64,000 nt of DNA. It comes from Brasilonema sp. CT11. GTDB lineage: Bacteria > Cyanobacteriota > Cyanobacteriia > Cyanobacteriales > Nostocaceae. The notes beneath the pieces are model-generated. The model searched no databases and was not told the DNA's origin. It saw only the letters and a program-made list of their open reading frames with translations. Location: positions 1 to 64,000 of the forward strand of contig NZ_JABXYX010000026.1 of the NCBI RefSeq assembly GCF_017982655.1. The letters run 5' to 3'. Position numbers and translations under genes: made by a program. Within the stretch, counting starts at the first letter, position 1. Every line of letters begins with the position of its first letter. This document shows, piece by piece, positions 9,221 to 34,106 of this stretch.

Positions 9221-9241
9221 GACGGGTTGACTCAACCTGTC
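9221..9241. promoter_or_regulatory. Palindrome between P450 gene and peptidoglycan-binding copy 3
   Basis: GGTTGACTCAACC forms an inverted repeat, extended by flanking GAC and GTC, at the stop codon of the 418-residue P450 gene. Its core resembles the palindrome at 8053-8072 (GGGTTGA and TCAACC). It may be a terminator stem or a shared protein-binding site; there is no T-run. Confidence 0.3.
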
Positions 9242-10496
9242 ACGCGACATCCCACTCCACCTCTAGGTGTGAGTAACCACGGAATATCATATTTGGAGAG
9301 TGGGTTAGTTCTTGGTTGGGGCGTAGTCGCAGATTTGGCAATCTCTTAGATAAGATCTCCAGCCCAATCCTTGCTTCCCGACGGGCAAAGTGGGAACCAA
9401 TGCAACGATGGGTTCCATGACCAAACGCTAGATGGTTGGGGGTAACCTCTTTAAAGCGTTCTAAATCAAGACTATCAGCATTGCTGTATTTAGTTTCATC
9501 CCGATTGGCAGAGCCATATATCAAATAGATTCGAGTACCCTTGGGCAGCATGACTCCCGCTAACTCAACTTCTTGGGTAGTTGTGCGAGTCATTGATGTG
9601 ACAGGAGCATCATACCTTAGTATCTCTTCAAGAGCAACAGGAATGAGTGCAGGATTGTCACAAATAGTCTGCCATAAATGAGGCTGCTCTAGCAAGTGTT
9701 TTAAAGCATTCCCAATTAGATGAGAACTCGTTTTATGTCCTGCTTGTACTAACCCACATAAAATACTGACTAACTCTACCATGTTCAGGTCAGAAGACAG
9801 CACATTGCTAATTAGGTCGTCTTGAGGTGATTTCCGTCGCTCCTCAATGAGACTGGCAACGTAGTGCTGCATTGACACAAAACTTTGAGCGCATTCTAAC
9901 TGACGTTCCGCTGTCATTGGCGTTGACAGCAACTCATCCATGTCATAGCACCACTTCTTAAGATCTTTCATCCTGTCTGAAGGAATACCATACATGGTGA
10001 GGATGGCTTCAAGCGGCAGTGGATAGGAAAATTGCTGTATTATGTCGGCGTGACCATCATTAACAAAATTGTCTACTAATCTGTTAGCAATAGTGTGAAT
10101 TGGTCTTTCCATTGCCTCAATCCGCTCTGGTGCAAATACTCTCATGAAAGGAGCACGCAAGCGTTTGTGTTCTTCGCCGTCGCTATTCACCAAATCACGA
10201 ACTTTCGGGACACCTTGCTTGAGGGCTTCAACTGTTTGAGGCGTGAATTTGATGACTGGAGCGAGAGTATCCATTGAAGAATATCTTGCTGGATCTTTGA
10301 GTACCTTCAAGATTTCATCATAGCTAGTCAGAACATAGCCGTTTAACAATGGGCTATAAAATAGCGGCTCTTCTTGTCTTGCAACTTTATAAAACGAATA
10401 TGGATCGTCAAGTTGTGGGTTGACAAATGGTTGGTATTTTTCCCCAAGATGGGGGCAAGTTTTCTTTTCAGGTTGTGTTGAATGTTGTCCCATCAT
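9240..10496 (-). CDS. Cytochrome P450 with an atypical I-helix (AGHKTSS)
   Basis: A soluble bacterial-type P450 of 418 residues that would need separate ferredoxin and reductase partners. The ExxR motif is in EEILRY. The haem-binding loop is FGHGTHRCIGSHFAR, with cysteine as the thiolate ligand. The I-helix reads LVQAGHKTSSHLIG. In most P450s this position is acidic (AGHETT), and the acid-alcohol pair helps deliver protons to oxygen; here it is lysine. This P450 is clearly diverged from the StaP-like one at 11125, so it is not a recent duplicate. It probably acts as a tailoring oxidase in the neighbouring indole cluster, which is inference from position. The start is MMGQHS with a weak GAGA upstream. 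Confidence 0.9.
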   Translation of the reverse strand: MMGQHSTQPEKKTCPHLGEKYQPFVNPQLDDPYSFYKVARQEEPLFYSPLLNGYVLTSYDEILKVLKDPARYSSMDTLAPVIKFTPQTVEALKQGVPKVRDLVNSDGEEHKRLRAPFMRVFAPERIEAMERPIHTIANRLVDNFVNDGHADIIQQFSYPLPLEAILTMYGIPSDRMKDLKKWCYDMDELLSTPMTAERQLECAQSFVSMQHYVASLIEERRKSPQDDLISNVLSSDLNMVELVSILCGLVQAGHKTSSHLIGNALKHLLEQPHLWQTICDNPALIPVALEEILRYDAPVTSMTRTTTQEVELAGVMLPKGTRIYLIYGSANRDETKYSNADSLDLERFKEVTPNHLAFGHGTHRCIGSHFARREARIGLEILSKRLPNLRLRPNQELTHSPNMIFRGYSHLEVEWDVA

Positions 10497-10545
10497 AGTT
10501 TATATGTTTCTCTATTTTGGTTTTATTTATATTGCTGACAATCAT

Positions 10546-10920
10546 TCATTTTTGACAATCAATACTGAACGGATTACCTTCTGGATCTACACCTTCGGCA
10601 ATTTTTAACCCAGGCGAGGGAGAACGAATTGCGCTAAGTTTAACGCCGCGTTCTGTTAATTCTTTATAAGCTGCATCAATATCATCTACGTGAAATGCTA
10701 AGAGTGTGGGTTTATCTGTACCAATTTGCTTCTGCATATTGCCGTGCAAAACCAAGGTGCATTCGCCGGTGATAAACTCCACCCATTGTTTATCAATGCG
10801 TCCTTCTATACTTTGCCGACATTTGATTGTTAAACCCAATTTATTTTGATAAAAATCGATTTGTTTGTCTATGTCTGTGACGTAGACGAGAGCTTTTGTC
10901 AAACCTTGTATAACGTTCAT
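10546..10920 (-). CDS. VOC-superfamily (glyoxalase/bleomycin-resistance-like) protein
   Basis: A 124-residue protein with one vicinal-oxygen-chelate fold. It starts TKALVYVTDIDKQIDFYQNK, has the central TLLAFHVDDIDAAYKELTER, and ends DPEGNPFSIDCQ. Family members are metal-dependent lyases, dioxygenases or ligand-binding immunity proteins. The metal-ligand positions are not complete enough to name a reaction. It lies between two P450 genes on the same strand, 49 bases before one and 204 after the other. A role as a binding or self-protection protein for the pathway product is possible but unproven. AAGG lies about 11 bases before the ATG. Confidence 0.8.
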   Translation of the reverse strand: MNVIQGLTKALVYVTDIDKQIDFYQNKLGLTIKCRQSIEGRIDKQWVEFITGECTLVLHGNMQKQIGTDKPTLLAFHVDDIDAAYKELTERGVKLSAIRSPSPGLKIAEGVDPEGNPFSIDCQK

Positions 10921-11124: not shown

Positions 11125-12378
11125 TTAAGCGATCGCAGGCTTTTTAAAACTCACCTGCAAATGATTAGGACCATGAAACACAATGTTGTTTGCCCACTCA
11201 ATCTTGTCATCTGCCAAACGAAGCTCAGGCAAACGGTTGAGCAAGACATTCATGGCAATTTGACCTTCAGCACGAGCTAGGGATGAACCAAGACAGTAAT
11301 GAATACCGCCGCCATAGGCACTGTGTTTGTTTTCTACACGCTGTATATCCAGAACATCAGGGTTCTTGAATTGGGCGGGATCTCGGTTGGCTGAGCCAAG
11401 CATGACTCCTACGCTATCCCCGCGCTTAATCAACTTACCCCCAACCTCAACGTCTGCATAAGCCCAGCGTGTAACCATCTGGATTGGGGTGTCGTAGCGG
11501 ACGAACTCCTCTATTGCAGCAGGAATCAGTTCGGGGTGAGAGCGTAACTTTTGGAGTGCTTCTGGATGCTGGAGTAATGCCAGTGTCCCCTTGGCAATCA
11601 GGTTAATTGTGGTTTCGTGTCCTGCAGTCAGCAGGTGGGTGCATGTGGCGACGATTTCAAAGTCGCTCAATTTGTCGCCCTCATCAGCAGCTTTGACTAA
11701 AGCCGAAATCAAATCTTCACGTGGATTGGTACGTCGTTCTGTGATTAAAGGCGTGAAATAATCGACGAATGATTGAGCAGCCTTGTTTGCACGTTGATAG
11801 ACTTCTGGTGGTGGTTGCAAACGGGAGGCACTGGCATGTTGCATCGCTAATGCCCATTCACGGAACAATGGCAAATCTTCTGGATCGGCACCAAGCATAG
11901 TGGCGACAACTTTTGTTGGCAGAGGAAAAGCGAACTCCTCAACTAAGTCCATCTCTCCACGGTTCTGGACTTTATCCAACAGATTGTCTGCAATTTCGTA
12001 GATCGCTGGACGGATGTTTTCAACAATTCTTGGGGTGAATGCTTTGCTAGCCAGCGATTTTAGCCGTGTGTGATTGGGTGGTTCCCGGAAGACTATCCAA
12101 TTACTAACGAGAGCCAAGAACGCGTTATATGCTGTTGGCACTGGGGTGGTTTCAACATCTTCTCGTTCGTTCAAAGTCTCGCGACCAAATCTCCGGTCTT
12201 CGAGAACTTTCATTACGTCTTCATGACGGAAGATGTACCAAGCACCAGGCAACTTGGGATTCGCTGATACCCCCCAATGAACGGGGTCTTCTTCTCTGTA
12301 GCGACGATAAACGGTGTAGGGGTCTTGGATAACTTCTTTTATAAAGGGGTTTAATCTTTCAATCGTTGAACTAGTCAT
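11125..12378 (-). CDS. StaP/RebP-like cytochrome P450 (putative chromopyrrolic-acid oxidase)
   Basis: A 417-residue P450. Motifs are the I-helix LLTAGHETTINLIAKG, ExxR in EEFVRYD, and the haem loop GGGIHYCLGSSLARAEG. Long stretches recall CYP245A1 (StaP) and RebP, which couple the indole rings of chromopyrrolic acid: DPYTVYRRYREEDPVH near the start, QMVTRWAYADVEVGG, GSANRDPAQF, and the ending IVFHGPNHLQV. It would work after the RebD-like enzyme at 13342 and with the RebC-like flavoenzyme at 22830. The start was moved to the ATG at 12378 because GGAG lies nine bases upstream; the longer frame begins at a TTG. A relic of a second copy's 3' end lies at 22796-22850. The assignment is from memory of StaP, not from alignment. 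Confidence 0.85.
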   Translation of the reverse strand: MTSSTIERLNPFIKEVIQDPYTVYRRYREEDPVHWGVSANPKLPGAWYIFRHEDVMKVLEDRRFGRETLNEREDVETTPVPTAYNAFLALVSNWIVFREPPNHTRLKSLASKAFTPRIVENIRPAIYEIADNLLDKVQNRGEMDLVEEFAFPLPTKVVATMLGADPEDLPLFREWALAMQHASASRLQPPPEVYQRANKAAQSFVDYFTPLITERRTNPREDLISALVKAADEGDKLSDFEIVATCTHLLTAGHETTINLIAKGTLALLQHPEALQKLRSHPELIPAAIEEFVRYDTPIQMVTRWAYADVEVGGKLIKRGDSVGVMLGSANRDPAQFKNPDVLDIQRVENKHSAYGGGIHYCLGSSLARAEGQIAMNVLLNRLPELRLADDKIEWANNIVFHGPNHLQVSFKKPAIA

Positions 12379-12415
12379 TTTTATTATCTCCAAGAAAAAG
12401 TTTTGAATCAGGGGT

Positions 12416-12515: not shown

Positions 12516-13190
12516 CTAACTTTCCAAGGGCACTAGTTGCAGGGGATTGCGCAGTTCAGACAACATCTGTGTCATCTGCTTGCGTCCGGAGTTGAAAACT
12601 TGTGCTACGGATGGTCTGGATTCCAAACGTTTGACGTAATTTGTCAAGTTGGGAAAGTCGTTGTAGTTGTAGACCATACGCAGGTAAGCGAGGGTGGGGG
12701 CAGCAGCACAATCAGCGATTGTAAACTCTTCGCCTCCTAGCCAGGTACGAGTGGCGAGTTTTTCATCAAGCATGGCGATCGCTGTTTCCAATAATCGCTT
12801 TGCTTTGATAACTTCTTTTTTGCCTCGTTCCTCAATTGGACGTTGGGTATCAGCAAACAACGCCTCCCGTCCACTGTTGATGTACACATCAATCATCCGT
12901 TCCACCATCCGCACCTCTAGGGCTTGTTCTGAATCACCAGGAATCAGGCGGGATGTCTTTGGAAAATGTTGGTCAAGGTATTCAATGATTATATTAGCCT
13001 CAAAGATGACGTTTCCTTTGTCAGTTACTAAGGTGGGTATCTTGGCAAAAAGGTTAATTTGCATATACTCTTCACGGCTTTCGGGGTCAAAAAGATTTAC
13101 CGGAATCGCTGTAAAATCAACTCCCTTCTCGTACAGGGCGATTAGGACTCGTTGGGAATAAGATGATGCAGGAGCGTAGTACAGTTTCAT
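12516..13190 (-). CDS. Glutathione S-transferase family protein
   Basis: A 224-residue GST. The N-terminal thioredoxin-like domain (about residues 1-80) has YYAPASSYSQRVLIALYEKG, the cis-proline block KIPTLVTDKGNVIFEANIII, and the usual EYLDQHFP. The helical C-terminal domain (about 90-215) has the N-capping-type EFTIADCAAAPTLAYLR. A serine in SSYSQR is the likely thiol-activating residue. It lies between the StaP-like P450 and the RebD-like gene on the same strand. It may conjugate or reduce a reactive intermediate of that pathway, or serve general detoxification; the sequence does not decide. The next gene starts after a 151-base repeat-filled gap. Confidence 0.85.
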   Translation of the reverse strand: MKLYYAPASSYSQRVLIALYEKGVDFTAIPVNLFDPESREEYMQINLFAKIPTLVTDKGNVIFEANIIIEYLDQHFPKTSRLIPGDSEQALEVRMVERMIDVYINSGREALFADTQRPIEERGKKEVIKAKRLLETAIAMLDEKLATRTWLGGEEFTIADCAAAPTLAYLRMVYNYNDFPNLTNYVKRLESRPSVAQVFNSGRKQMTQMLSELRNPLQLVPLES

Positions 13191-13193
13191 GAC

Positions 13194-13341: not shown

Positions 13342-16300
13342 TCAATGCAATAACGACTGGGGATGACGAGCTAAATCATCAAAGAATCTGGCGTAGAAAT
13401 CAAAGATTTCGCAGACACTGTTGGGGATGACTCCGCACTCACGCGATCGCTGTCCTAGTCGCTCAAATCGACGGGCGATCGCACTCATTGCAATTTCTGG
13501 CGTGGGGATATAACTGGGGGATTCTATCTCAAAGGATGGTCCGGCTGTTTTACCGCTTTTGCCCGAAGGCATACTCATAAGCAACTCTCCTAAAGGACGC
13601 ATCATACCCGTCATCACGTCAATGGCAGCATTCATCAGCTTTGAGCGCCGCAGACTACCAGTGGGCATTAACCCAAAGTGTTGTACCATAAGTTGCGTCA
13701 TTAGGAAATAAGTTTCGTTAAATATCTCCATGACTGCTCTGGTTTGGGGGACTGTAACAACGTTGGTATTGTAATCTCGGTAATGTAAGGAAGGATTACG
13801 CAAAGCAGGGTAAGAAGGGTTCCACGGGGCTTTGTGTTTCGTCTCGCCATTACTCACCTGCTCATGGGAAAGTGCTTCTGCTAAACGACGAAATTGCTGA
13901 TAGTGAGAACGGTCAAATTTCGGTGATTGAGCGTGACATCCCTCTCCCTGCTCAACAATCAGGTCAACGGCGAAAAGTGCGCTGTTGAGGTCATCTACCT
14001 GAAACTGGTAATCTGGGTGAACTTTGTTAAAGTCATCGCGTAAAAATAAACGATGCTCGCCACCGACTTGACCCTTCTTGACCATGAATAAATCTGGAAT
14101 ATTCTTCAGCCCTTCACGAATCTGATGGTACAGTTCGCTTAAAGAACCATAACCGTGTAGGCGGTGAACTGTCGGATCGCCTCCTACAGGTTCGTCGCTC
14201 AAGTTTTCTTCCAAAAAGTCGGGCATCTCCAAGCGCAGAAAACGCTGTAGGGAGGTAGCATTCAATGGCTCTAGGGCAAAATCTACATCAATGGGAAAAC
14301 GTCCGTTGAGTTCTTTGAAGTTGGGGACTGCTGGATAAAATGGTTCCCCGATCGCCATCAATATATTATTAACCATCAAAAAGTGAATCATTTCCTCGCG
14401 GGAGATTTCCAGCAGTACACCCCGCATTCCGTAACTTCGGACTTCTTTCCCGTCGCCACAAGCTAAATGTAACTGTTCGGGAGTCCACAAACCCCGACGC
14501 ACGTATTCCTCACCCGTGACGTAGTTGGGAACAGAGTATCCTGCATAGACATATTGCAACATTACAGCAACTTCCAACTCCGCCGCCTGTTTCAAGGCGC
14601 TGACCAACTCCTCTCGTGTTTGGAGTGTGCGTTGAGTCCGCTTTAGTTCTGGAGTCGGACTTGGGACATAGCCAACTCGCTGCTGATTTTGCAGAAACTT
14701 CAGTAAAAGTATCGACTTGGCTTGGGACATATCACGCGTTGGGGGCATATAGTAAGTTTTATATTTGTTGCGCGGGTCAGACATCTGCCACATCAATCGC
14801 GCATAGGTTTCTACCTTGCATTGGTCGGCGAGACTAAAGACATCTACTTTCATGAACGAGAAACTTAACTCGTAGAAAGCTAGAACATGTTCGTAGATTA
14901 AGTTAAAATCTACTGCTTCATTCGGAATCTCATCCAAGTGCCAGTCATCACTTAGCACTCGCACAGCAAAGAAACCAGCACCTGACCAGAAGCCCAGTTT
15001 ATCATCATTGTCGTAAGCAATTTCCGCTTCATCCAAGTTATGAGAGTCACAAGGTAACTCATCATAGTTAGCAGATAGCAGTACCCGTGTCGTTCCTGCT
15101 CTAGCACCACGCACAGTAACCCAAGCACGCCCCTCATGATTAGTGGAAATTGCACATGTGGGGGCAAACTCACCCTCAGACTCCTGCTTCCCAACTTTGA
15201 AATGGACAATTTCCATTTCAGAGTTACGGGGAAAGTGGAAAGTCTTATTTACGTTGGTAGGGTTCACCCTGAGCGCAGTCGAAGGGTTGCTTTCAAATTC
15301 GTAGCGTAGTTGGGGGAATGCTCTTGGGTTGTAGAACTGACGCAGGTATACAGACTCAACAGGTGCAGGACGTCCTCGGACAAAAGACCGCACTTCCAAC
15401 TCTACTGCATGGTCTTGGTTCTGCTTCCAGTTGGGATGTTCGATAAATAAAGACGCGTCATCTACCTGAAGATTGATTTCTTCTTCTTGAACAAGAATTT
15501 GCTGTTGTCCGTTAGGTGATGTCCCGATGATACACAAACCTTGCTGTTCTATCTCGTCGCGCAGGTTCTCAAACTGTTCAGCTAAAGGAACATCTACAAT
15601 TCCACTCGTGCGTTGATGCGCCTGGTGTTGGTATTCTTCTTTGGGTATCCGTGCTATCAGCCGTTGGCTGTGAACAGTACGCAGTTCCAAATCACCAAGG
15701 TCGAGTTTGGAGGCGATCGCATGAGTTAGTCCGGGTCCCGGTTTGGGGGCGCGTCCGACACAAGGTACTGCTGTGACCATATTTAAGCTGACACCTTGGG
15801 GAGTAACTTGCAGCGTGAGGTTAGACATTTGTCCAGATTTTGTTTCCGACTTAGCAGCACGTCGAGGAGTGAGTAACCGTCCGTGGGGATAAGTGCTGAG
15901 TTCGTCTTTGCACCACAAACCGATGGTTCCGTGTAGTTCCCAGAATGTTGGTGAGTCGGGTTGCACTGGTGCACACATATTACTAATGCCCAATTGCACC
16001 ACCAGTCCCAACACATCGTTACGATTCATTGCTTCCCGCAGTAAAGATACAGTTGGTGATTTCGCCGCTTCTTCATCCCAAAGGAAGTCTTTGGCATCTT
16101 TGGGGATAGTAAACTGATAAACTGATGCTCGTTTAAATTCACTGTTGAGGCAGTGTTGAGGTAATTCGCGGATATGGTCGAAATTTTGCCAACGGGCTAA
16201 CTGCATACCAGAAATTGGCGCAGAAAGCATATATGGAACTTCGTGGGAAACACCTTGACGTCCGAAGGCTAGCTGTCCCAACATAATTGTGTTAGTCCAG

Positions 16301-16725
16301 TTGGAAGCTGGGTCGGATTCAAAGAAACGGGCGCGATTGAAACTTGTTTTGACGTATTCGTTGTAATGACCCCACAAATCAACACTGCGTCCTACCACTG
16401 GATCACGTTGGTCGATTTGTCCAAACTCGCGTTGTGTGCTGACAATTTGTGCTTCGATGGAAAAGTGACCGTTACCGCCAAAGTCCGATCCCATCGCCAT
16501 ACTGAACGGACCATTTTCATCCAATTCCCCTTGGGCGTTAAACCGAGGTCCCAATTTATAAAGGTATTCATGATACTCAGATGCTCCACGGTGGTCGTCG
16601 AAGGGCTTACCATTCATGTACACTGTGTTGCTACTGACATCTACCAGACCGTTTTTATGTCCTGTCGGCGCGTGGATGCGGGCGAAACCGAATAAGTGTA
16701 GGCGAGGAAAATCTAAGATACTCAT
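13342..16725 (-). CDS. RebD/StaD/VioB-type imine-dimerising haem enzyme (putative chromopyrrolic acid synthase)
   Basis: A giant 1127-residue enzyme. Family members couple two molecules of indole-3-pyruvate imine into chromopyrrolic acid (RebD, StaD) or its precursor dimer (VioB). The N-terminus, MSILDFPRLHLFGFARIHAP then GLVDVSSNTV and SEYHEYL, matches the diagnostic start of VioB and RebD. A ferritin-like domain at about residues 700-1000 has ELEVAVMLQYVYAGY and ISREEMIHFLMVNNIL (near 780), with likely iron-ligand glutamates and histidine. It is longer than RebD or VioB, both near 1000 residues; the extra length is spread through the middle. It heads a same-strand run with GST, the StaP-like P450, VOC and a second P450. 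The matching oxidase gene upstream is truncated. No clear Shine-Dalgarno precedes the ATG. Confidence 0.88.
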   Translation of the reverse strand: MSILDFPRLHLFGFARIHAPTGHKNGLVDVSSNTVYMNGKPFDDHRGASEYHEYLYKLGPRFNAQGELDENGPFSMAMGSDFGGNGHFSIEAQIVSTQREFGQIDQRDPVVGRSVDLWGHYNEYVKTSFNRARFFESDPASNWTNTIMLGQLAFGRQGVSHEVPYMLSAPISGMQLARWQNFDHIRELPQHCLNSEFKRASVYQFTIPKDAKDFLWDEEAAKSPTVSLLREAMNRNDVLGLVVQLGISNMCAPVQPDSPTFWELHGTIGLWCKDELSTYPHGRLLTPRRAAKSETKSGQMSNLTLQVTPQGVSLNMVTAVPCVGRAPKPGPGLTHAIASKLDLGDLELRTVHSQRLIARIPKEEYQHQAHQRTSGIVDVPLAEQFENLRDEIEQQGLCIIGTSPNGQQQILVQEEEINLQVDDASLFIEHPNWKQNQDHAVELEVRSFVRGRPAPVESVYLRQFYNPRAFPQLRYEFESNPSTALRVNPTNVNKTFHFPRNSEMEIVHFKVGKQESEGEFAPTCAISTNHEGRAWVTVRGARAGTTRVLLSANYDELPCDSHNLDEAEIAYDNDDKLGFWSGAGFFAVRVLSDDWHLDEIPNEAVDFNLIYEHVLAFYELSFSFMKVDVFSLADQCKVETYARLMWQMSDPRNKYKTYYMPPTRDMSQAKSILLLKFLQNQQRVGYVPSPTPELKRTQRTLQTREELVSALKQAAELEVAVMLQYVYAGYSVPNYVTGEEYVRRGLWTPEQLHLACGDGKEVRSYGMRGVLLEISREEMIHFLMVNNILMAIGEPFYPAVPNFKELNGRFPIDVDFALEPLNATSLQRFLRLEMPDFLEENLSDEPVGGDPTVHRLHGYGSLSELYHQIREGLKNIPDLFMVKKGQVGGEHRLFLRDDFNKVHPDYQFQVDDLNSALFAVDLIVEQGEGCHAQSPKFDRSHYQQFRRLAEALSHEQVSNGETKHKAPWNPSYPALRNPSLHYRDYNTNVVTVPQTRAVMEIFNETYFLMTQLMVQHFGLMPTGSLRRSKLMNAAIDVMTGMMRPLGELLMSMPSGKSGKTAGPSFEIESPSYIPTPEIAMSAIARRFERLGQRSRECGVIPNSVCEIFDFYARFFDDLARHPQSLLH

Positions 16726-17502: not shown

Positions 17503-18106
17503 TTAAGCTGCAGGATATTCCAGATGTTGATTGTTTTGTAGAGTCTTGACATTTACGTTGTTGGTAACGGGGTATTTTCTTGTCGCTTTCTTTGGCTGTT
17601 GGTGAGAAACAATATCGTACACAGCTAAGAGTGCAGACTCAATAGAACCCTGAAGCCAAGCAGGATATTTAGAACAATGTTCGCCAGCGAACAAGAGAGT
17701 GTTTTGGGGTCTGGTAGCTTCTAAGTAACTGATTGTATGGTTAGACTCATCAGACATATCATCACTCCAATGAACAGTGCATCCACCCGCACTCCACTGG
17801 TAGTTACCCCAGGCAATAGAAGCCACATCTAAAACCATACCAGGAGTTTGGAGTTCTGGGTGAACTTTGCTGAGGACATTCTTGACGTAAGCGTGACGTT
17901 CTTGCTCAGACATCATTCCCAAGCGTTGTGCATCGTCACCGATGGTATAACTCGCAAGCATCGTACTACCACGTTCGGGGTTGAATTTCACAGAAGGATA
18001 GTATGTTTGACGAACGCCATCACCGCTAAAGGATGCACCACCCTTGATACCTTGTTTTTCCCAAAAAGCTTGTTCTGTGTGAAGTGCGACTTTGGTTGCT
18101 GGACAG
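17503..18106 (-). pseudogene. 3' fragment of a flavin amine oxidase (RebO/StaO/VioA position)
   Basis: This is the C-terminal third of an FAD-dependent amine or L-amino-acid oxidase. Readable blocks are PATKVALHTEQAFWEKQG, GNYQWSAGGCTVHW, and the terminal FAD-binding block TLLFAGEHCSKYPAWLQGSI. The frame is open upstream of the first ATG-like codon to about 18106 and then meets the inverted end of a MITE, with an in-frame stop just beyond. The N-terminal dinucleotide-binding GxGxxG domain is absent from the next several hundred bases, so the gene is truncated and not merely interrupted. In indolocarbazole and violacein clusters an oxidase of this family makes the imine used by RebD or VioB. 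That this fragment was that oxidase is inferred from its family and position. Confidence 0.75.
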
Positions 18107-18204
18107 TATAGCAGTCGCCAGGTAGATTAGGACACGAACTAATGAGAAAACACGGTCACCAAGAGACTTTCAACTCTGTTCCCTGTTCCCTGTTCCCTGC
18201 TATA
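18107..18204. repeat. MITE-like element with TATAGCAG ends, copy A
   Basis: About 98 bases starting TATAGCAG and ending CTGCTATA. It is homologous to 63143-63260: both contain GTAGATTAGGACA and AACTAA or AACTAAC followed by GAGAAAA. No coding potential is seen, so it is probably moved in trans. Its left end marks exactly where the amine-oxidase homology stops. The right part contains TTCCCTG tandem repeats. Confidence 0.7.
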
Positions 18205-26138: not shown

Positions 26139-26181
26139 GATAATGGTTTTTCTTAAGAATCAAAGCAATGTAGGTATTTTA

Positions 26182-26937
26182 ATGGCAAATAACTTTAAGC
26201 AAAGACTGAAACAAAAAGAAACTCTGATCGGTATTGTAATCAAACTCCCAAGCTCAGAAACTGCTGAAGTGTTGTCACACATCGGATTTGACTGGTTTTG
26301 GATAGATATGGAACATGGTGCTCTCAGTTTAGAAAAAGTCCAGTTAATTATGCAAGCAAGTGGCGGGCGCTGTACAAATTTAGTCAGGGTACCTTGGAAT
26401 GACGCCATTTGGATAAAGAGGGTACTAGATACGGGATGTGATGGGATAATTCTGCCTCAAGTCAAAACACCTCAAGAGGTCAAATATGCCCTTGAAGCTT
26501 GCTTATACCCTCCACAAGGAAGTCGGAGTATTGGAACTGGAAGAGCACAAAACTATGGAATGAGTGTTCAAGAGTACTTGAAGACGGCAAACGAAAACAT
26601 AGTCATTATTCTACAAATTGAACACATTGATGCAGTGAAAAACATTGAATCCATAATTGATGTTCCTGGTTTCGATGCTATACTTATTGGCCCATTTGAT
26701 CTTTCCGGCAGTATGGGACTGCCTGGTCAGATTAATCATCCTGATGTACAGAAAGCAATTAATTCCGTTAAAGAAGCATGTTTGAAGAAAAATATACCAG
26801 CAGGTATTTTTACTAGTGATTCTAAGGGTGCTTTATCTGCAAAAAAAGCAGGATATAGCTTGATCGGGGCAGGTGTTGACGCAGTGTATCTCTGGAAATC
26901 GGCAAAACAAACTCTTGAACAGATTAATTCAATCTAG
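26182..26937 (+). CDS. HpcH/HpaI-family (class II pyruvate) aldolase
   Basis: A 251-residue TIM-barrel aldolase of the HpaI, 2-keto-3-deoxy-rhamnonate aldolase and macrophomate-synthase family. These enzymes use a divalent metal to form or cleave bonds between pyruvate enolate and an aldehyde. Blocks seen are FDWFWIDMEHGALS, LVRVPWNDAIWIKRVLD, GCDGIILPQVKTPQEV, YPPQGSRSIG, and the metal-binding IILQIEHIDAVKN and AILIGPFDLSGSMG. The longer frame to 26143 was trimmed to the ATG at 26182, which has AGG eight bases upstream. It is transcribed towards trpB. Duplicated trpB 3' sequence lies on both sides, so the gene looks inserted there. A role in the indole pathway is not evident. Confidence 0.82.
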   Translation: MANNFKQRLKQKETLIGIVIKLPSSETAEVLSHIGFDWFWIDMEHGALSLEKVQLIMQASGGRCTNLVRVPWNDAIWIKRVLDTGCDGIILPQVKTPQEVKYALEACLYPPQGSRSIGTGRAQNYGMSVQEYLKTANENIVIILQIEHIDAVKNIESIIDVPGFDAILIGPFDLSGSMGLPGQINHPDVQKAINSVKEACLKKNIPAGIFTSDSKGALSAKKAGYSLIGAGVDAVYLWKSAKQTLEQINSI

Positions 26938-26940: not shown

Positions 26941-27080
26941 CCTGTAAACGGTTACTATGAAACTGACGGAGATCGCCCCCGTCAGTTGTTTTTGAATAAC
27001 AATGTTTACTACAAACCTGTTTCAAACCCTTCAAGACATTTAAAAAATATCCAAGAATTTTGCAACAGTATTCACATCCT
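26941..27080. repeat. Direct repeat, copy 2, containing the live trpB 3' end
   Basis: The partner of 25999-26138. The two copies flank the aldolase gene, consistent with a duplication that left the aldolase between old and new trpB ends. Confidence 0.8.
26961..26987. terminator. Bidirectional terminator between aldolase and trpB
   Basis: Arms AACTGACGG and CCGTCAGTT around a short loop, followed by GTTTTTG on the plus strand. It lies 23 bases past the aldolase stop and about 50 bases past the convergent trpB stop, so it can serve both. Confidence 0.75.
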
Positions 27081-28266
27081 TGTCACCACGTCCAGAAAAA
27101 TTGATGACAATTTTAGGAGAACCAGTCAGTTGTGGACAAAGAGTTTCCAACAAAGCGATCGCATGAGAAGTCTCCAGTGCTGGAATAATCCCCTCCAGTA
27201 GCGACACACGTTTAAACGCTTCCAACGCCTGCTGGTCAGTCACACTGTAGTATTCAGCACGTTCTATATCTTTCAAATAACTATGTTCTGGACCGACACC
27301 AGGATAATCTAACCCAGCACTGATAGAGTGTGCTTCTGTGATCTGACCATCCTCATCTTGCAGAACATAACTCATTGCGCCGTGCAAAACACCGACTTTG
27401 CCTAGTGTCAAAGTTGCCGCGTGTTTTTCAGTATTAATTCCTTCACCCGCCGCCTCAACTCCAATCAGACGTACAGATGCTTCATTGACAAATTCATGGA
27501 AAAGCCCCATTGCATTGGAACCTCCGCCAACACAAGCAAGCAGAATATCTGGTAGTCCACCCCATTTTTCTTGAGACTGGCTGCGAGTCTCTTTACCAAT
27601 GATTGCTTGAAAGTCTCGCACGATCATCGGGTAGGGATGGGGACCTGCAACGGAACCTAAAATGTAATGGGTAGTTTCGACATTCGTTACCCAATCGCGA
27701 ATCGCTTCTGATGTTGCATCCTTAAGGGTTCCAGTTCCTGCTTCCACTGGACGAACTTCTGCTCCCATCAAGCGCATCCGAAATACATTCAAGGCTTGCC
27801 GTTCCATGTCATGGACGCCCATGTATATCATGCATTTTAAGCCAAAACGAGCGCATACTGTAGCGGTTGCAACACCATGCTGACCAGCTCCAGTTTCGGC
27901 AATAATCCGCTGTTTGCCCATACGTTTGGCGAGTAATACCTGAGCTAAGGCGTTATTAATTTTATGTGCGCCTGTATGGTTTAAGTCTTCTCTTTTTAAG
28001 TAAATTTGCGGTCCAGTTCCATCTGGTTTAGCGTAGTGTGCTGTCAGGCGTTCGGCAAAGTATAGGGGAGTAGCGCGTCCTACGTAGTCGCGTAGTAGTC
28101 CCTGTAGTTCATCCTGAAAATCTGGATCGTTGCGGTATTTTTGATACGCTGTTTCTAATTCCGAAAGTGCAGGCATTAATGTTTCGGGTACATACTTGCC
28201 CCCAAATTGACCAAATCTGCCTAATGCATCGGGTTGCTGAGTCGTTCTAGGTGTATCTGCTAACAT
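27040..28266 (-). CDS. trpB: Tryptophan synthase beta chain
   Basis: A 408-residue PLP enzyme that joins indole and serine to make tryptophan and works with the TrpA chain. The start [20 protein letters not shown] is the family signature. The PLP lysine is Lys102 in [11 protein letters not shown]. The cofactor-phosphate loop is [11 protein letters not shown], and the end is [20 protein letters not shown]. The length is normal. ACGGAG lies eight bases before the ATG. It is last of the series trpE-trpC-trpA-trpB on this strand, with a 195-base gap after trpA that contains a copy of ACTTATGC. It is probably a second, pathway-dedicated copy, as trp genes in Nostocales alkaloid clusters often are; that needs the rest of the genome. 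Confidence 0.97.
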
Positions 28267-28461
28267 GGAATCTGCTCCGTAAAACTTATTTAAAATTGAT
28301 CACTTTCTCATTAATTTCTTGCTTCACCAAAGGAGTCGGCTCCTGATGCGTGAAATTTGGAACTGAATTTTCAGGACTTATGCTAAAACTATCAAAAAGT
28401 TCAATTAATTTCACTGCAGCAGGTAGAGAGAAAAAGATGAAAATGCGTAACTCCGAAAATG

Positions 28462-29277
28462 TTACTTTCTAATTCCCGCAGTGGGGGTAATTGCTGCTTT
28501 CAAATCGGTACAGAAATCTTTAATAACTCGCAGTCCTTGGTTCGGTGTGTTTTCTCCCAAGCGTTGCACAAACGCGCTTCCCACAACCACTCCATCTGCG
28601 CCCCAGTCTTGAACTTGATGAGCTTGTTCTGGGGTAGAGATACCAAAACCAACGGCTATTGGCTTGTTTGTGACGCTGCGGATTTCTTTGAGCACATCTT
28701 TTACGCGTGTTTGCACTTGAGAGCGTACACCTGTTACACCTGTGACACTGACTAAGTAAATAAACCCACGAGATTGACGAGCGATCGCCTCAATTCGCTG
28801 TTTGGGAGTGTTGGGAGTGACTAATAGTGTGACTTCAATTCCTACAGCATCAGCAGATTTCAATAAATTGTCTGCTTCTTCTAAGGGTAAATCCGGTACG
28901 ATTAACCCCTTGATTCCAGAATCAGCAGCTCGCTTGAGGAATTGTTGGATGCCGAGATTTAAAATTGGGTTGTAATAAATGAAGAGGATGATGGGCGATC
29001 GCACACTCTTAGTGGCTGTTTGCGCCATTTCTAAAACATGAGCTAGTCGAGTTCCCCCCTTAAGCGCACGAGTAGCAGCCGCTTGAATCACTGGTCCATC
29101 CGCCAAGGGATCTGAGTAGGGAACTCCTAGTTCTATGAAATCTGCACCATTAGCGTCTAATATTTTTAGGGCTTCGGCTGTTGTTTCCAAATCTGGATCG
29201 CCTGCTGTGATGAAGGGCATTAAAGCACATTGGTTTTTTGTGCGTAAATGTTCAAACTGTTCTGAGATAGAAGTCAT
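28462..29277 (-). CDS. trpA: Tryptophan synthase alpha chain
   Basis: A 271-residue TIM-barrel enzyme that splits indole-3-glycerol phosphate to indole and glyceraldehyde 3-phosphate. The catalytic residues are Glu49 and Asp60 in [17 protein letters not shown]. The later [12 protein letters not shown] and [11 protein letters not shown] are the phosphate-binding loops, and VVVGSAFVQ ends the barrel. All catalytic motifs are intact. AGGA precedes the ATG. It lies 88 bases after trpC and 195 before trpB on the same strand. Confidence 0.97.
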
Positions 29278-29365
29278 CTTAATTAAATCCTAAAAGTGGA
29301 CAATAAGTTAATAGAGGAAAAGCAGAATGAAAAATGCAAAATTCACGATGAAGTCAAGAATGATT

Positions 29366-30214
29366 TTACTTTCTTAATTCCTTGACAGCTTGCTCTAAAT
29401 CAGCTTGCTTGATTAAAGATTCTCCTACCAACACAGCTTTAGCTCCCGCCTGGGCTACAAAAGCTAAATCAGAAGATGTGTACAAACCAGACTCACTCAC
29501 GACTGTTATATCTAAATCACTTAACTTTTGTTGACGTTCTCTCAACAGGTGTTTCGTGATTTCTATGTCAAGGGTAAAGTCTTCCAAATTGCGGTTGTTA
29601 ATTCCGACAAGCTGCACATTTGATAATGCCAGTACTCGGTCAAGTTCAGTCAAGGTATGCACTTCCACCAATGGAGTCATGCCCAAATGCTGAATAATGT
29701 TTAGAAAATGTTGCAGTGTTTCGTCGTTTAAAATAGCAGCAATGAGTAGCACTGCATCTGCACCGTTGACTCGCGCTAGATAAATTTGGTAAGGATCGAT
29801 AACAAACTCTTTGCAAAGTAGCGGCAACTCTACATGATTTCTAATGAGTCGCAAATTCTTAAAACCGCCCTGAAAAAATTTCTCGTCAGTTAGCACAGAA
29901 ATACAAGTCGCGCCGCCTCGCTCATATGCTTGGGCAATTTTTACGGGTTCAAAATCAGCACGAATAACTCCTTTACTTGGTGAGGCTTTCTTGACTTCTG
30001 CAATAATGCTGGGAGGAGTAGAATTTTGCCGTATGGCATTCAAGAAATTTCGTACAGGGGGAGCAAGACTGATCTGATGTTTTAACTCGGCTATTGGCAG
30101 TTGCTCTTTCATGAGCGCAACTTCTTGTTGTTTATGCTCAACAATTTCTTCGAGAATATGGCGGGGTTTGGTAGACGCAGTTGCTTGAGTTGGTTGCTGG
30201 TGAATATTTAGCAT
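29366..30214 (-). CDS. trpC: Indole-3-glycerol phosphate synthase
   Basis: A 282-residue enzyme that closes the indole ring from carboxyphenylamino-deoxyribulose phosphate. Motifs are [19 protein letters not shown] with the catalytic lysine, [47 protein letters not shown] and AVLVGESLI. It is monofunctional, with no TrpF domain attached. No trpD or trpF is visible in the window, so those steps must be encoded elsewhere. It lies 78 bases after trpE, with a hairpin in the gap. Confidence 0.97.
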
Positions 30215-30252
30215 CTTTTTATAGTGGTTATTAGTTCAACAAAGGGAGAGTC

Positions 30253-30279
30253 AACCCTCTCCTACAACTAGAGAGGGTT
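30253..30279. promoter_or_regulatory. Hairpin in the trpE-trpC gap
   Basis: A nine-base perfect inverted repeat, AACCCTCTC and GAGAGGGTT, with a nine-base loop lies between the trpE stop and the trpC start. No T-run follows. It may set the relative levels of the two mRNAs by processing or partial termination. Confidence 0.4.
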
Positions 30280-30292
30280 ATAACAGAGGTGA

Positions 30293-32488
30293 TTATGCAA
30301 GCGCTGAGGAGGGAATTGTAGCCATGAATTCATGGACTACATTTTGAACAATTGTTAAGCCTATTCCGCCTGCTAAAGTCATGATAGATTCTGGATGGAA
30401 CTGAACAGCAGCAATTGGTAATGTGCGATGCTCAATGCCCATAATCACACCATCTGCAGACATGGCGGTTACTTTGAGTTCTCCAGGCAAGCTTTCGGGC
30501 AGTGCATACAACGAGTGGTATCTACCAACTTCAAACGATTGTGGTAAACCTTTGAAGGTCACAGAATCTGGATCAACGACAGATACCATAGATACCTTAC
30601 CATGCTGGGGATAATCCAGAACTCCCAGTTTTCCGCCGTGTGCCTCGACTATTCCTTGTAAGCCCAAGCACACACCAAATATGGGAATTTGCCGTTTTTT
30701 ACAGGCTGCGATTGTGTCTGCAACACGAAAGTCACTTGGTTTTCCAGGACCAGGAGATAATACAACCAAGTCAGGTTTTTCTGTATCAAAAACTGATTCT
30801 GCAAAACCATGCCGTAGTGTTGTGACTGTGGCACCAGTTTGACGGATGTAATTTGCTAGGGTATGAAGAAATGAGTCTTCATAGTCAACTAGCAAGACAC
30901 GTTTGCCCGCCCCTACATTGGCTTGTTGAATGTCAATGTTTGACATTTTTGACAATTGGACTTTTTTATGGTCTGCTTCTTTAAGGGTTTGGAATAAGGC
31001 ACTAGCTTTAGTAATAGTTTCTTGTGCCTCTGCTTCTGGCTCTGAGTCATAAAGAACTGTTGCACCAACTCGTACCTGTGCAATTGAGTCTTTTAGTCGG
31101 ATAGTTCTCAAAATCAAACCAGTATTCAAGTTGCCTTTAAAATTTAAGCCTCCAACTGCTCCACCATACCAACGTCTGGGACTGCGCTCATTTTGTTCTA
31201 GAAACTGCATGGCTGAGCGTTTTGGTGCTCCAGTGACTGTGACTGCCCATAAATGTGTCAGGAATGCATCCAAAGCATCAGCTTCTGGTTGCAGCACGCC
31301 TTCTACATGGTCTACCGTATGGATGAGATGGCTGTATAATTCAATTTGGCGACGACCTATGACTCGCACACTTCCTGGTTCACAAATTCGCGACTTGTCG
31401 TTGCGGTCTACATCAGTACACATCGTGAGTTCAGATTCATCTTTACGCGAGTTCAGCAGCTTCTGGATTTGTACCGCATCGTCAATTGCAGTTTCTCCTC
31501 GACGGATTGTACCACTGATTGGGCAAGTTTCAACACGTCTGCCCTCAACACGCACAAACATTTCTGGAGATGCACCAATCAGATATTCTCCACTTAAATT
31601 AAAGATGAATCCATAGGGACTGGGATTAATTTCCCTGAGTGTGCGGAAAAGTTGGGTTGGGGATTTTTCACAGGTTTGAAAGAAGCTTTGACTGGGAACA
31701 ACTTCAAATAAATCACCGCGACGGAAATAATCGAGTGCTTTGGTGACTTGTTGTTCATATTCACCTGGTGCATGATCAGAGGTTTGAGCCGCACTTAAAC
31801 GCTTACCTCGGTAATCTATCACTTCACCCGTGCGAGGTAAATCCCGAGTGCTACCATTGTTAGTGACGAAATCATATTGCACTCTGAATGCCTGTTGCAG
31901 GTGGTAGTCAACAACTAACAACTCATCAGGTAGATATAGTACCAAGTCTCTTTGGTCTGCTGAACGTTCCAGATGCTTTGGCATTTGCTCAAATTGGAAA
32001 ACTAAGTCATAGCCAAATGCACCATAAAGCCCCAAGTTTTCATCTACTGGACTGTGGAAGACAGATAATATCTCGCGAACAACGCTGAAAACAGAAGGTT
32101 GTCTACTGCGTTCTTCTTCTGAGAAGAGACGTTCAGTTGGTTTGACAGAGCCGATAATACGCTTGTTTTCTTTATTAACAGCTTGAAGATATGGTTGATC
32201 CAACAGGTTCTGTGCTAGATAATCTAGCAGTATCTTGCCTCGCTCATTATGAGCCGTAATCGTAAAAGTGTTATCGCGGGTAACAAGTTCTAAAGGTGGA
32301 TTAACAAAACCGATCGCCCAGCGTTTGTAGCGTCCTGGGTATTCATAGCTACTTGCCAACAACCCTCCGCGTTGGGAATCCAGACGTATCAAAACCTCAT
32401 CAATTGCCGACTCTATAGAAGTATTCGTTACGGAGCGTGATACAAATATTCCACCTTGAGTTGTGTAGGATTGTGTGTCAGAATACAT
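30293..32488 (-). CDS. trpE: Fused anthranilate synthase TrpE-TrpG
   Basis: A 731-residue fusion making anthranilate from chorismate and glutamine. The TrpE part (about residues 1-515) has ETCPISGTIRRGE, SELTMCTDVDRNDKSRIC and the block VTVTGAPKRSAMQFLEQ. The TrpG amidotransferase part (about 535-725) has VLLVDYEDSFLHTLANYIRQ, the nucleophile-elbow cysteine in FGVCLGLQGIVEAHGG, and the histidine-glutamate pair in AVQFHPESIMTL. The N-terminal GGLLASSYEYPGRYKRW is the version usual in fused enzymes, unlike the LLES of enteric TrpE; whether feedback inhibition is retained cannot be told. GAGG lies nine bases before the ATG. The 523-base gap upstream makes it the likely first gene of a trp transcript. 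Confidence 0.96.
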   Translation of the reverse strand: MYSDTQSYTTQGGIFVSRSVTNTSIESAIDEVLIRLDSQRGGLLASSYEYPGRYKRWAIGFVNPPLELVTRDNTFTITAHNERGKILLDYLAQNLLDQPYLQAVNKENKRIIGSVKPTERLFSEEERSRQPSVFSVVREILSVFHSPVDENLGLYGAFGYDLVFQFEQMPKHLERSADQRDLVLYLPDELLVVDYHLQQAFRVQYDFVTNNGSTRDLPRTGEVIDYRGKRLSAAQTSDHAPGEYEQQVTKALDYFRRGDLFEVVPSQSFFQTCEKSPTQLFRTLREINPSPYGFIFNLSGEYLIGASPEMFVRVEGRRVETCPISGTIRRGETAIDDAVQIQKLLNSRKDESELTMCTDVDRNDKSRICEPGSVRVIGRRQIELYSHLIHTVDHVEGVLQPEADALDAFLTHLWAVTVTGAPKRSAMQFLEQNERSPRRWYGGAVGGLNFKGNLNTGLILRTIRLKDSIAQVRVGATVLYDSEPEAEAQETITKASALFQTLKEADHKKVQLSKMSNIDIQQANVGAGKRVLLVDYEDSFLHTLANYIRQTGATVTTLRHGFAESVFDTEKPDLVVLSPGPGKPSDFRVADTIAACKKRQIPIFGVCLGLQGIVEAHGGKLGVLDYPQHGKVSMVSVVDPDSVTFKGLPQSFEVGRYHSLYALPESLPGELKVTAMSADGVIMGIEHRTLPIAAVQFHPESIMTLAGGIGLTIVQNVVHEFMATIPSSALA

Positions 32489-33011
32489 AGATGTGACCCT
32501 CTTAAAGTTTACTTAAAAATCATCACCAGAATAATTTGACGACTTGCTGACAAAGTTGAGTGCAGGACACTGTTTTTTTGAGTGATTGTTGGTTGACAGC
32601 AACTACCCGATATTAAATAGATGTAGTTCAATTTCACTTATGCAGTTTTGAGAAGTACAAGCTTCTGGAGCGTTCAGTATCAAAATATCTATTGCGCCTG
32701 TAGTCATTTTGGTATCTACAAAAGATTTGGTTAGAAAATCAGGAGTTTTGTCAAGTTGTTGTCGGTATAAAATTTCTTAAGATTTAACAGCAGTGTCAAT
32801 TATAGTTTTAGAATGAGAAAATGCGAGTAAATTAGTTTGTGCGTATTTTCCTACTGTATTTTTAGTCAAGCTGAAAGAATAATACGCACACATGATTGCC
32901 TTAACGAAATAATTTCAGAATGATTAAAGAATTTGAGGTAGGCAAATCGATGAGTCATTGGTGTAAACATGATATTACCTACCCTAGAGAAACCACTGAT
33001 GATTGCTCAAC
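32489..33011. other. Upstream region of trpE
   Basis: No gene is seen. It contains ACTTATGCAGTTTTGAGAAG (32636-32655), which resembles elements upstream of the RebD-like and lipoxygenase genes. I saw no Trp-rich leader peptide of an attenuator. Confidence 0.4.
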
Positions 33012-34106
33012 TTAGACACCTACAGTCGAAAGAGTTTTGGTAGCAGATGATGTAGTTGTGAAAGCAGACTTTGTTCCACGTCCGAAGAATTGGGCAAGGG
33101 AAGCAAGTTCCTGCATGAGTTCCACAAAATCCGGTGGTGTTAGAGATTGAGGACCATCTGATAGTGCTTTGGAGGGATTGGGGTGAACTTCAATCATCAA
33201 GGAATCTGTACCAGCGGCGATCGCTGCCTTTGCCATTGTTGGTACAAACTTAGAGTAGCCGGTGGCATGACTGGGATCAATCATAATTGGCAAATGGGTC
33301 AGTCCACGCAATACAGGTACCACAGATAGATCTAGAACATTTCTTGTATACTGCTTGTCAAAGCTGCGAATTCCGCGTTCACACAAAATCACATTTGGAT
33401 TACCAGCAGCCAGAATGTATTCAGCAGCCATCAACCATTCTTCAATTGTCGCAGACAGCCCCCGCTTGAGCAGAATTGGTTTACCAGTAGCGCCTGCTTT
33501 CTTCAGTAAGGAGAAGTTCTGCATATTGCGAGCACCAATTTGCACCACATCTGCAACTTCTGCAACTTTGTCTAAGTCGGCTGTATCCATCACTTCTGTG
33601 ATAATCCCTAGTCCAGTGACTTCGCGGGCTGTTGCTAACAGAGATAAAGCGCTTTCGCCATGTCCTTGGAAAGCATAAGGTGAGCTACGAGGTTTGTATG
33701 CTCCTCCCCGGAGAAACTGTGCACCTGTGGCTTTTACGACTTGTGCTGTTTCCACAATCATTTCTTCGTTTTCGACTGAACAAGGTCCAGCGACTACAAT
33801 TAAAGGATGATTTTGACCAAAAGTGACTGGACCATTGGGAGTTGGGACAACGACTTCGCTTGGTTCACCATAGCGATATTCTAACGAAACCCGTTTGAAA
33901 GGTTGTTTCACGCGAATCACCTGTTCGATAAATGGACTGATTTGTTGGACGTGTTCAGGAGAAATAACACTTGTATCACCTACCAAGCCGATAACAACTT
34001 TGTCTTTACCGACAACTTTTTCGGTTGTTACGGGATAATGGCTCAGTTCTTGAATGATTCTTTCGATTTCAGATGCGGGAGTTTGGGATTTGATGACGAC
34101 AATCAT
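33012..34106 (-). CDS. 3-deoxy-7-phosphoheptulonate (DAHP) synthase, type I-beta with N-terminal ferredoxin-like domain
   Basis: The first enzyme of the shikimate pathway, condensing phosphoenolpyruvate and erythrose 4-phosphate. The N-terminal 75 residues (VVIKSQTPASEIERIIQELS) form the ferredoxin-like regulatory domain of the I-beta class. The barrel has VVAGPCSVENEEMIVETA, FLRGGAYKPRSSPYAFQG, ILLKRGLSATIEEWL, LCERGIRSFDKQYTRN and PIMIDPSHATGYS. The longer frame to 34286 was trimmed to the ATG at 34106, where GAGG lies eight bases upstream, giving 364 residues. It is upstream of trpE on the same strand. It would raise chorismate supply for tryptophan, as in other Nostocales indole-alkaloid clusters. 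Confidence 0.95.
   Translation of the reverse strand: MIVVIKSQTPASEIERIIQELSHYPVTTEKVVGKDKVVIGLVGDTSVISPEHVQQISPFIEQVIRVKQPFKRVSLEYRYGEPSEVVVPTPNGPVTFGQNHPLIVVAGPCSVENEEMIVETAQVVKATGAQFLRGGAYKPRSSPYAFQGHGESALSLLATAREVTGLGIITEVMDTADLDKVAEVADVVQIGARNMQNFSLLKKAGATGKPILLKRGLSATIEEWLMAAEYILAAGNPNVILCERGIRSFDKQYTRNVLDLSVVPVLRGLTHLPIMIDPSHATGYSKFVPTMAKAAIAAGTDSLMIEVHPNPSKALSDGPQSLTPPDFVELMQELASLAQFFGRGTKSAFTTTSSATKTLSTVGV

Follow-up and report, generated by a model that had tools for sequence, protein, structure and literature searches.

A probable cyanobacterial branch of the indolocarbazole pathway, with a truncated tryptophan oxidase gene, in the draft genome of Brasilonema sp. CT11

We analyzed a 64,000-nucleotide stretch of DNA from Brasilonema sp. 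CT11 (strain CCALA 1130; contig NZ_JABXYX010000026.1, positions 1 to 64,000; hereafter the window) and found a locus that encodes an indole-pyruvate imine dimerase, a StaP-type cytochrome P450 (P450a) and a RebC/StaC-type flavoenzyme, set among accessory genes and followed by tryptophan biosynthesis genes. Chance was excluded as the origin of the three enzyme assignments, and the locus probably represents a cyanobacterial branch of the indolocarbazole pathway that works as outlined below. Its core chemistry would be the known one; what appears to be new is the cyanobacterial accessory gene set and its wide but patchy occurrence. The tryptophan oxidase gene of the locus is truncated in the assembly.

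In the proposed pathway, DAHP synthase, TrpEG, TrpC, TrpA and TrpB would provide more tryptophan, which the adjacent tryptophan oxidase would normally convert into indole-3-pyruvate imine. The StaD/RebD-type protein would dimerize the imine to chromopyrrolic acid, and P450a would couple the two indole C2 atoms. The product of this step, a reactive dicarboxy intermediate, would then be channeled by the RebC/StaC-type flavoenzyme, acting together with a glutathione S-transferase (GST) or before it, toward a stable aglycone whose oxidation level is more likely that of arcyriaflavin (imide) than that of K252c. A second P450 (P450b) may then alter the aglycone, a VOC-fold protein may bind it for self-protection, and MFS proteins may export it.

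The three core enzymes

Species genomes were scanned with an eight-row dimerase alignment, and 151 relatives were confirmed; the best 80 of these were used, comprising 34 loci in 31 cyanobacterial genomes, 42 actinobacterial loci and 4 from Oxalobacteraceae. Three annotated plasmid loci (Nocardiopsis, Pseudonocardia and Streptomyces clavuligerus) were added, so that, with the window, 35 cyanobacterial and 49 non-cyanobacterial loci were compared. A StaP-like P450 was present in 19 of the cyanobacterial relatives and in the window; counts out of 20 refer to these loci, and counts out of 15 to the cyanobacterial dimerase loci without this P450. Neighboring genes were scored by tblastn (E ≤ 1e-6) in the sequence flanking each dimerase gene, which never exceeded 10 kb and was often shorter, so that gene presences near the dimerase are lower bounds. 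A dimerase match was found in 13 of 59 genomes drawn by kinship, the source genome included (full length in the source and 11 relatives). In an even draw of 386 genomes across the phylum, two had a match at E ≤ 1e-100, one of them the source genome, which marks the family as sparse.

The dimerase (1127 residues, full length) scored 968.6 bits against TIGR04492, below the curated threshold of 1250 for a violacein VioB, making it a member of the family without a violacein-VioB call. It shared 40–50% identity with its actinobacterial homologues and had no match in the PDB. In the dimerase tree, a quick tree with SH-aLRT support only and with warnings for long branches and letter composition, the 35 cyanobacterial rows lay on one side of a branch, 45 actinobacterial rows on another and 4 violacein rows on a third. 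Family membership and tree placement indicate that the protein is a RebD/StaD/VioB-type imine dimerase and a predicted chromopyrrolic acid synthase, as the first-pass annotation had proposed.

StaP was the best PDB match of P450a (390 bits; next match, 318 bits), with 46.2% identity and with H250 and the HETT motif retained. H250, an important position in StaP, was kept together with H256, E257, T258 and T259 in all 57 aligned rows of the StaP clade. In the P450 tree, the 20 cyanobacterial StaP-like rows and 36 actinobacterial rows grouped as sisters (joint branch, 99), and StaN and the cyanobacterial P450b proteins formed separate clades, both apart from P450a. These comparisons place P450a as the cyanobacterial sister to actinobacterial StaP and make it a predicted indolocarbazole synthase, in agreement with its earlier description as StaP/RebP-like. 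Its start was placed at the ATG at 12378; the open reading frame (ORF) listing has a TTG at 12393.

The flavoenzyme, earlier called RebC/StaC-like, matched RebC best in the PDB (628 bits; the variant 4eip, 625 bits; the next other protein, 179 bits). In the RebC tree, 20 cyanobacterial rows formed one clade nested among 31 actinobacterial rows, with 10 distant homologues apart, and were nearest to five Streptomyces rows (support 87, an unstarred branch), which puts the window protein within the RebC/StaC clade by homology. The printed alignments of PDB 2r0c (RebC) and 4eip (RebC-10x) differed at ten positions. RebC-10x is described as a variant with StaC-like activity (excerpts of PMC10851217). 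At these positions, the window protein was StaC-like at 36, 46, 48 and 216, RebC-like at 37, 38, 117, 231 and 239, and like neither at 241. The V216/R239 pair was present in 20 of 20 cyanobacterial rows and in 5 of 31 actinobacterial rows; the other actinobacterial rows had V216 with N or T239 (18 rows), F216/R239 (7 rows) or C216/R239 (1 row). The flavoenzyme may thus occupy a third specificity state, Val216/Arg239, besides those of RebC and StaC. The five actinobacterial V216/R239 rows, which also form the nearest branch in the RebC tree, include S. gardneri and S. narbonensis, presumably near relatives of S. venezuelae. An arcyriaflavin cluster is reported to be present in S. venezuelae (excerpts of PMC8788739). 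Because the residue pair and the nearest branch are shared with kin of this species, an arcyriaflavin-level product is weakly favored.

Together, the three proteins fell within or beside the RebD/StaD, StaP and RebC/StaC clades, the placement on which the first-pass annotation had staked its indolocarbazole call. The core of that call stands; with the oxidase truncated, the sequence does not support a complete pathway at the locus. All ORFs named in that annotation were recovered where it had placed them, but inside its interval, 9240–34106, it had missed the C-terminal oxidase fragment at 17506–18126 and the tryptophan block at 27040–34106.

The truncated tryptophan oxidase

The oxidase fragment matched only the end of the amine-oxidase profile and corresponded to residues ~315–517; the start and the half that binds flavin adenine dinucleotide (FAD), at the N terminus, are gone. 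Its ORF was originally listed from 17991. In comparison with Brasilonema angustatum, ~1.57 kb including the oxidase start was replaced by ~150 bp with a dispersed repeat. With 40 of 218 candidates scored, the genome contained no fewer than 42 matches to this ~100-bp breakpoint repeat, counting the repeat itself. Relatives carry an intact oxidase of ~515 residues directly before the dimerase, and at least 41 of the 45 actinobacterial loci have an oxidase gene in this place. The oxidase (O), D and P genes are described as preserved in each indolocarbazole cluster (excerpts of PMC10851217). Because the oxidase is broken in the assembly sequence, the locus is an incomplete copy and not a complete indolocarbazole cluster; judged by the homology of its remaining core, it would work like one.

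Among the 20 loci, an intact oxidase was found near the dimerase in 11 (L073, L074, L076, L077, L080, L084, L092, L101, L102, L110 and L126). It was cut by a contig edge in L081 and L083, was truncated internally in the window, was reduced to a remnant of at most 50 residues in L078 (Tolypothrix campylonemoides) and was not found in the examined flank of L075, L079, L086 and L087. In Fischerella muscicola PCC 7414 (L104, 2–3142), an oxidase piece at the contig edge (residues 170–414) continues into an incomplete dimerase, which begins at about residue 300 and spans two ORFs, through decay or misassembly. No close oxidase was found in the genome of Scytonema tolypothrichoides (G001), in which group II intron reverse-transcriptase/maturase ORFs lie between the exporter and dimerase genes, the expected place of the oxidase; this loss suggests that the oxidase can disappear while the rest stays. 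In eight of eight further genomes without an intact oxidase beside the dimerase, a close match was present outside the locus (seven full length; the match in the genome of L090 was split in two with a stop; Calothrix HK-06 is among the eight because of a contig edge), which makes feeding in trans plausible for the family. Scytonema hyalinum (G011) encodes five full-length members of the tryptophan-oxidase family with 73–86% identity to the query.

Pairwise NG86 w values between the window and B. angustatum revealed purifying selection on all genes compared (0.04–0.30): the biosynthetic and tryptophan genes had values of 0.04–0.25, the two exporters 0.06 and 0.18, and RidA 0.30. The oxidase remnant gave 0.18, and an intact oxidase (G002 versus G004) gave 0.26. 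Since w averages over the time before the loss, these values are uninformative for decay after it.

With the oxidase cut off, the pathway would either depend on indole-pyruvate from outside or be silent, unless the cut itself arose during assembly. We kept both a real loss and an artefact in consideration because the assembly (GCF_017982655.1; 411 contigs, 8,789,847 bases), in which neither the missing N-terminal half nor a close full-length copy was found on other contigs, derives from amplified filaments. According to excerpts of its genome report, CT11 is a terrestrial strain from Costa Rica with a draft of ~8.79 Mbp in 411 scaffolds; DNA from filaments was amplified by multiple displacement amplification (MDA), and the draft was assembled using the single-cell mode of SPAdes (PMC7503407). 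That the truncation arose from MDA and short-read assembly across the dispersed repeat, the cluster being complete in the living strain, is a serious possibility, if somewhat short of an even chance: besides the amplification, the junction coincides with the repeat, and the remnant has no internal stop and a w comparable to that of intact copies. However, no contig with the missing 5′ half was found, the junction is internal to an 82.8-kb contig and the repeat is shorter than the stated 350-bp insert, and Scytonema tolypothrichoides also has group II intron ORFs where a close oxidase should be. The same species lends some weight to a real and recent truncation, with the cluster being lost in the strain and no product made. 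The absence of the oxidase start, of its FAD-binding half and of any other close oxidase found in the genome would fit this, whereas the remaining cluster ORFs are open and under purifying selection (averaged, again, over pre-loss time), and we consider such decay possible but doubtful.

A real truncation might also be bypassed if ScyB, the tryptophan dehydrogenase of scytonemin biosynthesis, fed indole-3-pyruvate in trans and the imine formed with ammonium. A scytonemin cluster is indeed present on contig C225 of the same genome (L173/L174), with ScyA, ScyB (677.8 against a curated cut-off of 600), ScyC, two ScyD/E-family proteins and a fused TrpEG, and the eight genomes with an oxidase match outside the locus make feeding from elsewhere plausible. 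Yet the trans sources in those genomes are oxidases and not ScyB, the RidA of the locus would destroy the imine, and the dimerase would have to accept pyruvate plus ammonium. We regard this route as unlikely.

Accessory genes and the tryptophan-supply block

The gene order VioB–(RebC)–GST–P450a–VOC–P450b–...–MFS was conserved in relatives (Table 1). The GST gene accompanied the StaP-like P450 in all 20 loci and occurred in 4 of the other 15; the corresponding counts were 16 of 20 and 1 of 15 for the VOC gene, 10 of 20 and 1 of 15 for P450b, and 12 of 20 and 8 of 15 for RebC. In the 49 non-cyanobacterial loci, no match to the GST, VOC, RidA, HabA-like or peptidoglycan-binding proteins of the window was found (tblastn, E ≤ 1e-6), and P450b was matched only as other P450s were, being the best query for just two (24–25%, L135). 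These accessory genes of the cyanobacterial loci were thus not seen in actinobacterial loci.

Domains were called with Pfam and NCBIfam, with 25 ORFs between 2894 and 37619 scanned with Pfam. The families earlier given for the second P450, the GST, the VOC protein and RidA were confirmed in this way. The name HabA-like for the protein at 7483–8043, which is conserved in relatives, found no support: there was no NCBIfam match to E 0.01, and searches of Pfam to E 1 gave a sub-threshold match to another family (E 0.042). Halogenase, glycosyltransferase and methyltransferase genes, which the first-pass annotation had not seen, were not detected either with two actinobacterial-cluster queries each (six in all; E ≤ 1e-6) in the 64 kb or as domains among the 25 scanned ORFs. 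A halogenated, glycosylated or methylated product from genes of this locus was accordingly set aside.

The GST carries a Ser-rich N-terminal motif, conserved in 24 rows, which resembles that of zeta/theta-class enzymes. The AlphaFold model of the VOC protein (predicted local distance difference test score, 84.3) retrieved glyoxalase-like proteins first in Foldseek, with the antibiotic-binding proteins TnmS1 and TnmS3 among the closest; the fold matched TnmS1–S3 at 22–29% identity. At the metal-ligand positions, Lys9 occupied the first in 17 of 17 rows and His77 was present in 10 of 17. Because the first position is invariably Lys, the His varies and the fold lies near small glyoxalase-like and drug-binding proteins, a ring-cleaving dioxygenase is disfavored, even with dioxygenases still in the fold list. 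The model makes a product-binding immunity protein of the TnmS/TioX type possible; the same list holds a Ni-glyoxalase, glyoxalases and dioxygenases that rank level with TnmS, which speaks against this role. P450b has an intact heme motif, and the usual acid of its I-helix is replaced by Lys in 8 of 9 rows and by Ala in 1 of 9. Its identification as StaN, the sugar-linking P450, was rejected on the separate tree clades and 24% identity. In Scytonema sp. RU_4_4 (L075/L034), P450b is split over two overlapping frames and the RebC match has one in-frame stop, possibly through decay or sequencing error.

The genes at 27040–34106 form a tryptophan-supply block that may serve the indolocarbazole pathway. 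The genome encodes two closely related fused TrpEG proteins, that of the block and one, 71% identical to it, on the scytonemin contig C225. The block was found, whole or in part, near the dimerase in several relatives. A lipoxygenase gene (34685–36370) adjoins it and is also present there in G004.

Table 1. Features of the locus in the window (loci: cyanobacterial loci with a StaP-like P450)
Feature	Position	Strand	Evidence or remark
MFS exporter with C-terminal FHA domain	5156–6790	-	MFS_1 and FHA; near dimerase in 16/20 loci
RidA-type enamine/imine deaminase	6847–7293	-	PF01042; 11/20 loci
Small protein, probably membrane (earlier HabA-like)	7483–8043	-	Kept in relatives; 12/20 loci
Small protein with peptidoglycan-binding domain	8871–9179	-	PF01471; more copies near 8111 and 8493; 16/20 loci
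Second cytochrome P450 (P450b)	9240–10496	-	PF00067; own clade; AGHKT motif
VOC-fold protein, possible product-binding immunity protein	10546–10920	-	PF00903; Foldseek matches
StaP/RebP-type indolocarbazole synthase P450 (P450a)	11125–12378	-	StaP best PDB match; tree
Glutathione S-transferase (GST)	12516–13190	-	GST_N/GST_C; 20/20 loci
StaD/RebD/VioB-type indole-pyruvate imine dimerase (chromopyrrolic acid synthase)	13342–16725	-	TIGR04492; ferritin-like domain; tree
Truncated L-tryptophan (L-amino-acid) oxidase, C-terminal ~200 codons	17506–18126	-	PF01593 positions 281–442
Oxidase-truncation junction with ~100-bp dispersed repeat	18107–18260		Comparison with Brasilonema angustatum
Second MFS exporter	18560–19786	+	MFS_1; syntenic in close relatives
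SLH/OprB porin	19947–21752	-	PF04966, NF033921
RebC/StaC-type FAD monooxygenase, Val216/Arg239 (RebC numbering)	22830–24521	-	PDB match, tree, residue table
HpcH/HpaI aldolase-family protein	26143–26937	+	PF03328
Tryptophan synthase beta (TrpB)	27040–28266	-	TIGR00263, 628 bits (cut-off 392)
Tryptophan synthase alpha (TrpA)	28462–29277	-	TIGR00262, 318 bits (cut-off 102)
Indole-3-glycerol-phosphate synthase (TrpC)	29366–30214	-	PF00218
Fused anthranilate synthase (TrpEG)	30293–32488	-	PF00425 and GATase
DAHP synthase (AroG type)	33012–34106	-	NF009933, 655 bits (cut-off 486)

The product and its relation to known systems

The aglycone is perhaps of the arcyriaflavin type. Several points weigh against the proposed pathway as a whole. 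The product, which the first-pass annotation had rightly called an inference, was read from the genes alone, with no metabolite seen in the analysis; the arcyriaflavin guess draws on a pair of residues, a branch without a star and the presumed kinship with S. venezuelae, and the roles of the GST and P450b are putative. No intact RebO/StaO-type FAD-dependent tryptophan oxidase was found at the locus in the assembly. RebC lay outside the examined flanks in 8 of 20 loci (further away in Scytonema tolypothrichoides), and 3 of 11 relatives (G004, G011 and G017) keep P450a with no close RebC genome-wide, suggesting that RebC is not essential to the family.

As these three relatives keep the GST along with P450a, the GST is a candidate handler of the StaP product. 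Elsewhere, RebC/StaC and RedE are described as handling this reactive compound (excerpts of PMC10851217). It seems improbable to us that the cyanobacterial loci form a class of their own, with the GST dealing, alone or jointly, with the unstable StaP product and with P450b remodeling the pyrrole ring. If the ring were opened in this way, products such as the 6-cyano-5-methoxyindolo[2,3-a]carbazoles of Nostoc would be expected; our literature searches found no gene cluster for these compounds.

We also considered whether the product could be another bis-indole, violacein-like or derived from chromopyrrolic acid. Fifteen of the 35 cyanobacterial dimerase loci (window included in the 35) have no StaP-like P450 in their flanks, and L082 and L085 have a flavin oxygenase instead, one of them with a type III polyketide synthase (PKS). 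The locus studied here, however, has both a StaP-type P450 and RebC, with no VioE-like match in the window, and such a product is very unlikely. An indolocarbazole remains the preferred reading.

Other cyanobacterial loci differed in content. Anabaena azotica contig16 (L082) and Nostoc flagelliforme (L085) combine the dimerase with a flavin oxygenase/halogenase-like protein, L085 also with the type III PKS and a cytochrome-b5-domain protein; neither has StaP or RebC in the examined stretch, and they perhaps represent a different bis-indole route. Nostoc paludosum FACHB-159 (L084, 1984–13232) encodes an oxidase, the dimerase, a HabA-like protein, a Rieske oxygenase, a methyltransferase, a GST, an O-methyltransferase and a StaP-like P450, with no RebC in the examined stretch. 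Speculatively, its two methyltransferases and Rieske enzyme fit the methoxy and N-methyl groups of the Nostoc sphaericum cyano-indolocarbazoles. Pseudanabaenales MAG.87 (L100, 110–10305) has an oxidase, a dimerase in two ORFs, a P450, a methyltransferase, a StaG-like glycosyltransferase (50%) and an O-methyltransferase, a possible glycosylated cyanobacterial variant. In Anabaena azotica contig49 (L102), an O-methyltransferase gene (15078–16223) lies between RebC and GST.

Indolocarbazoles inhibit kinases and topoisomerases and serve as drug leads, and the cyanobacterial loci may offer aglycones of a perhaps new class, along with a putative GST gatekeeper and a putative immunity protein, with intact clusters in strains such as Brasilonema angustatum HA4187-MV1. 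Excerpts of the CT11 genome report mention one antiSMASH "indole" cluster (PMC7503407), which may be this locus or the scytonemin cluster found in the same genome. In the literature consulted, the tjp cluster is the one described for cyanobacteria; it was reported from a single strain in a 2021 screen (excerpts of PMC8065813), and a PRISM match to "maleimide indolocarbazole" is listed for Chlorogloeopsis (excerpts of PMC11392904). Other indolo[2,3-a]carbazoles have been reported as products of Nostoc sphaericum (excerpts of PMC6572111).

The tjp cluster of Symphyonema bifilamentata 97.28 ("Fischerella ambigua 108b") shares with the window a tryptophan oxidase, a chromopyrrolic acid synthase-like protein, a P450 and the FAD monooxygenase type; the first-pass annotation had stated that tjipanazoles lack the pyrrole ring, but tjipanazoles J, K, L and M have it (excerpts of PMC10300848). 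The tjp cluster, compared by description only, has a tryptophan halogenase, whereas none was found in the window with the two actinobacterial queries, and because a glycosyltransferase and a methyltransferase were likewise not found, we did not file the locus as a tjipanazole cluster. The pSCL4 locus of S. clavuligerus (L072), staurosporine-type by its gene set, has the oxidase–dimerase order and homologues of StaD (42%), StaP (40%) and StaC (49%) in common with the window. The window differs from it in having no StaN, StaG, sugar genes or methyltransferases, in R239 instead of N/T in RebC, and in its added GST, VOC and P450b genes; an annotated "VOC family protein" ~12 kb from the L072 dimerase did not match the window VOC protein.

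Rebeccamycin RebC (2r0c) is 52% identical to the window flavoenzyme, which has V216, K46 and S48 in place of F216, R46 and G48, and the window yielded neither a halogenase nor a RebG homologue. The violacein cluster of Pseudoduganella violacea (L150) has a VioB homologue (38.6%), and a violacein reading was rejected: the StaP-type P450 is present, and the window had no match to the L150 ORF that gene order and length mark as the probable VioE. Streptomyces loci of the L140–L145 type, the product of which is perhaps arcyriaflavin, have no GST or VOC homologue but share V216/R239 and the nearest actinobacterial RebC branch with the cyanobacterial loci.

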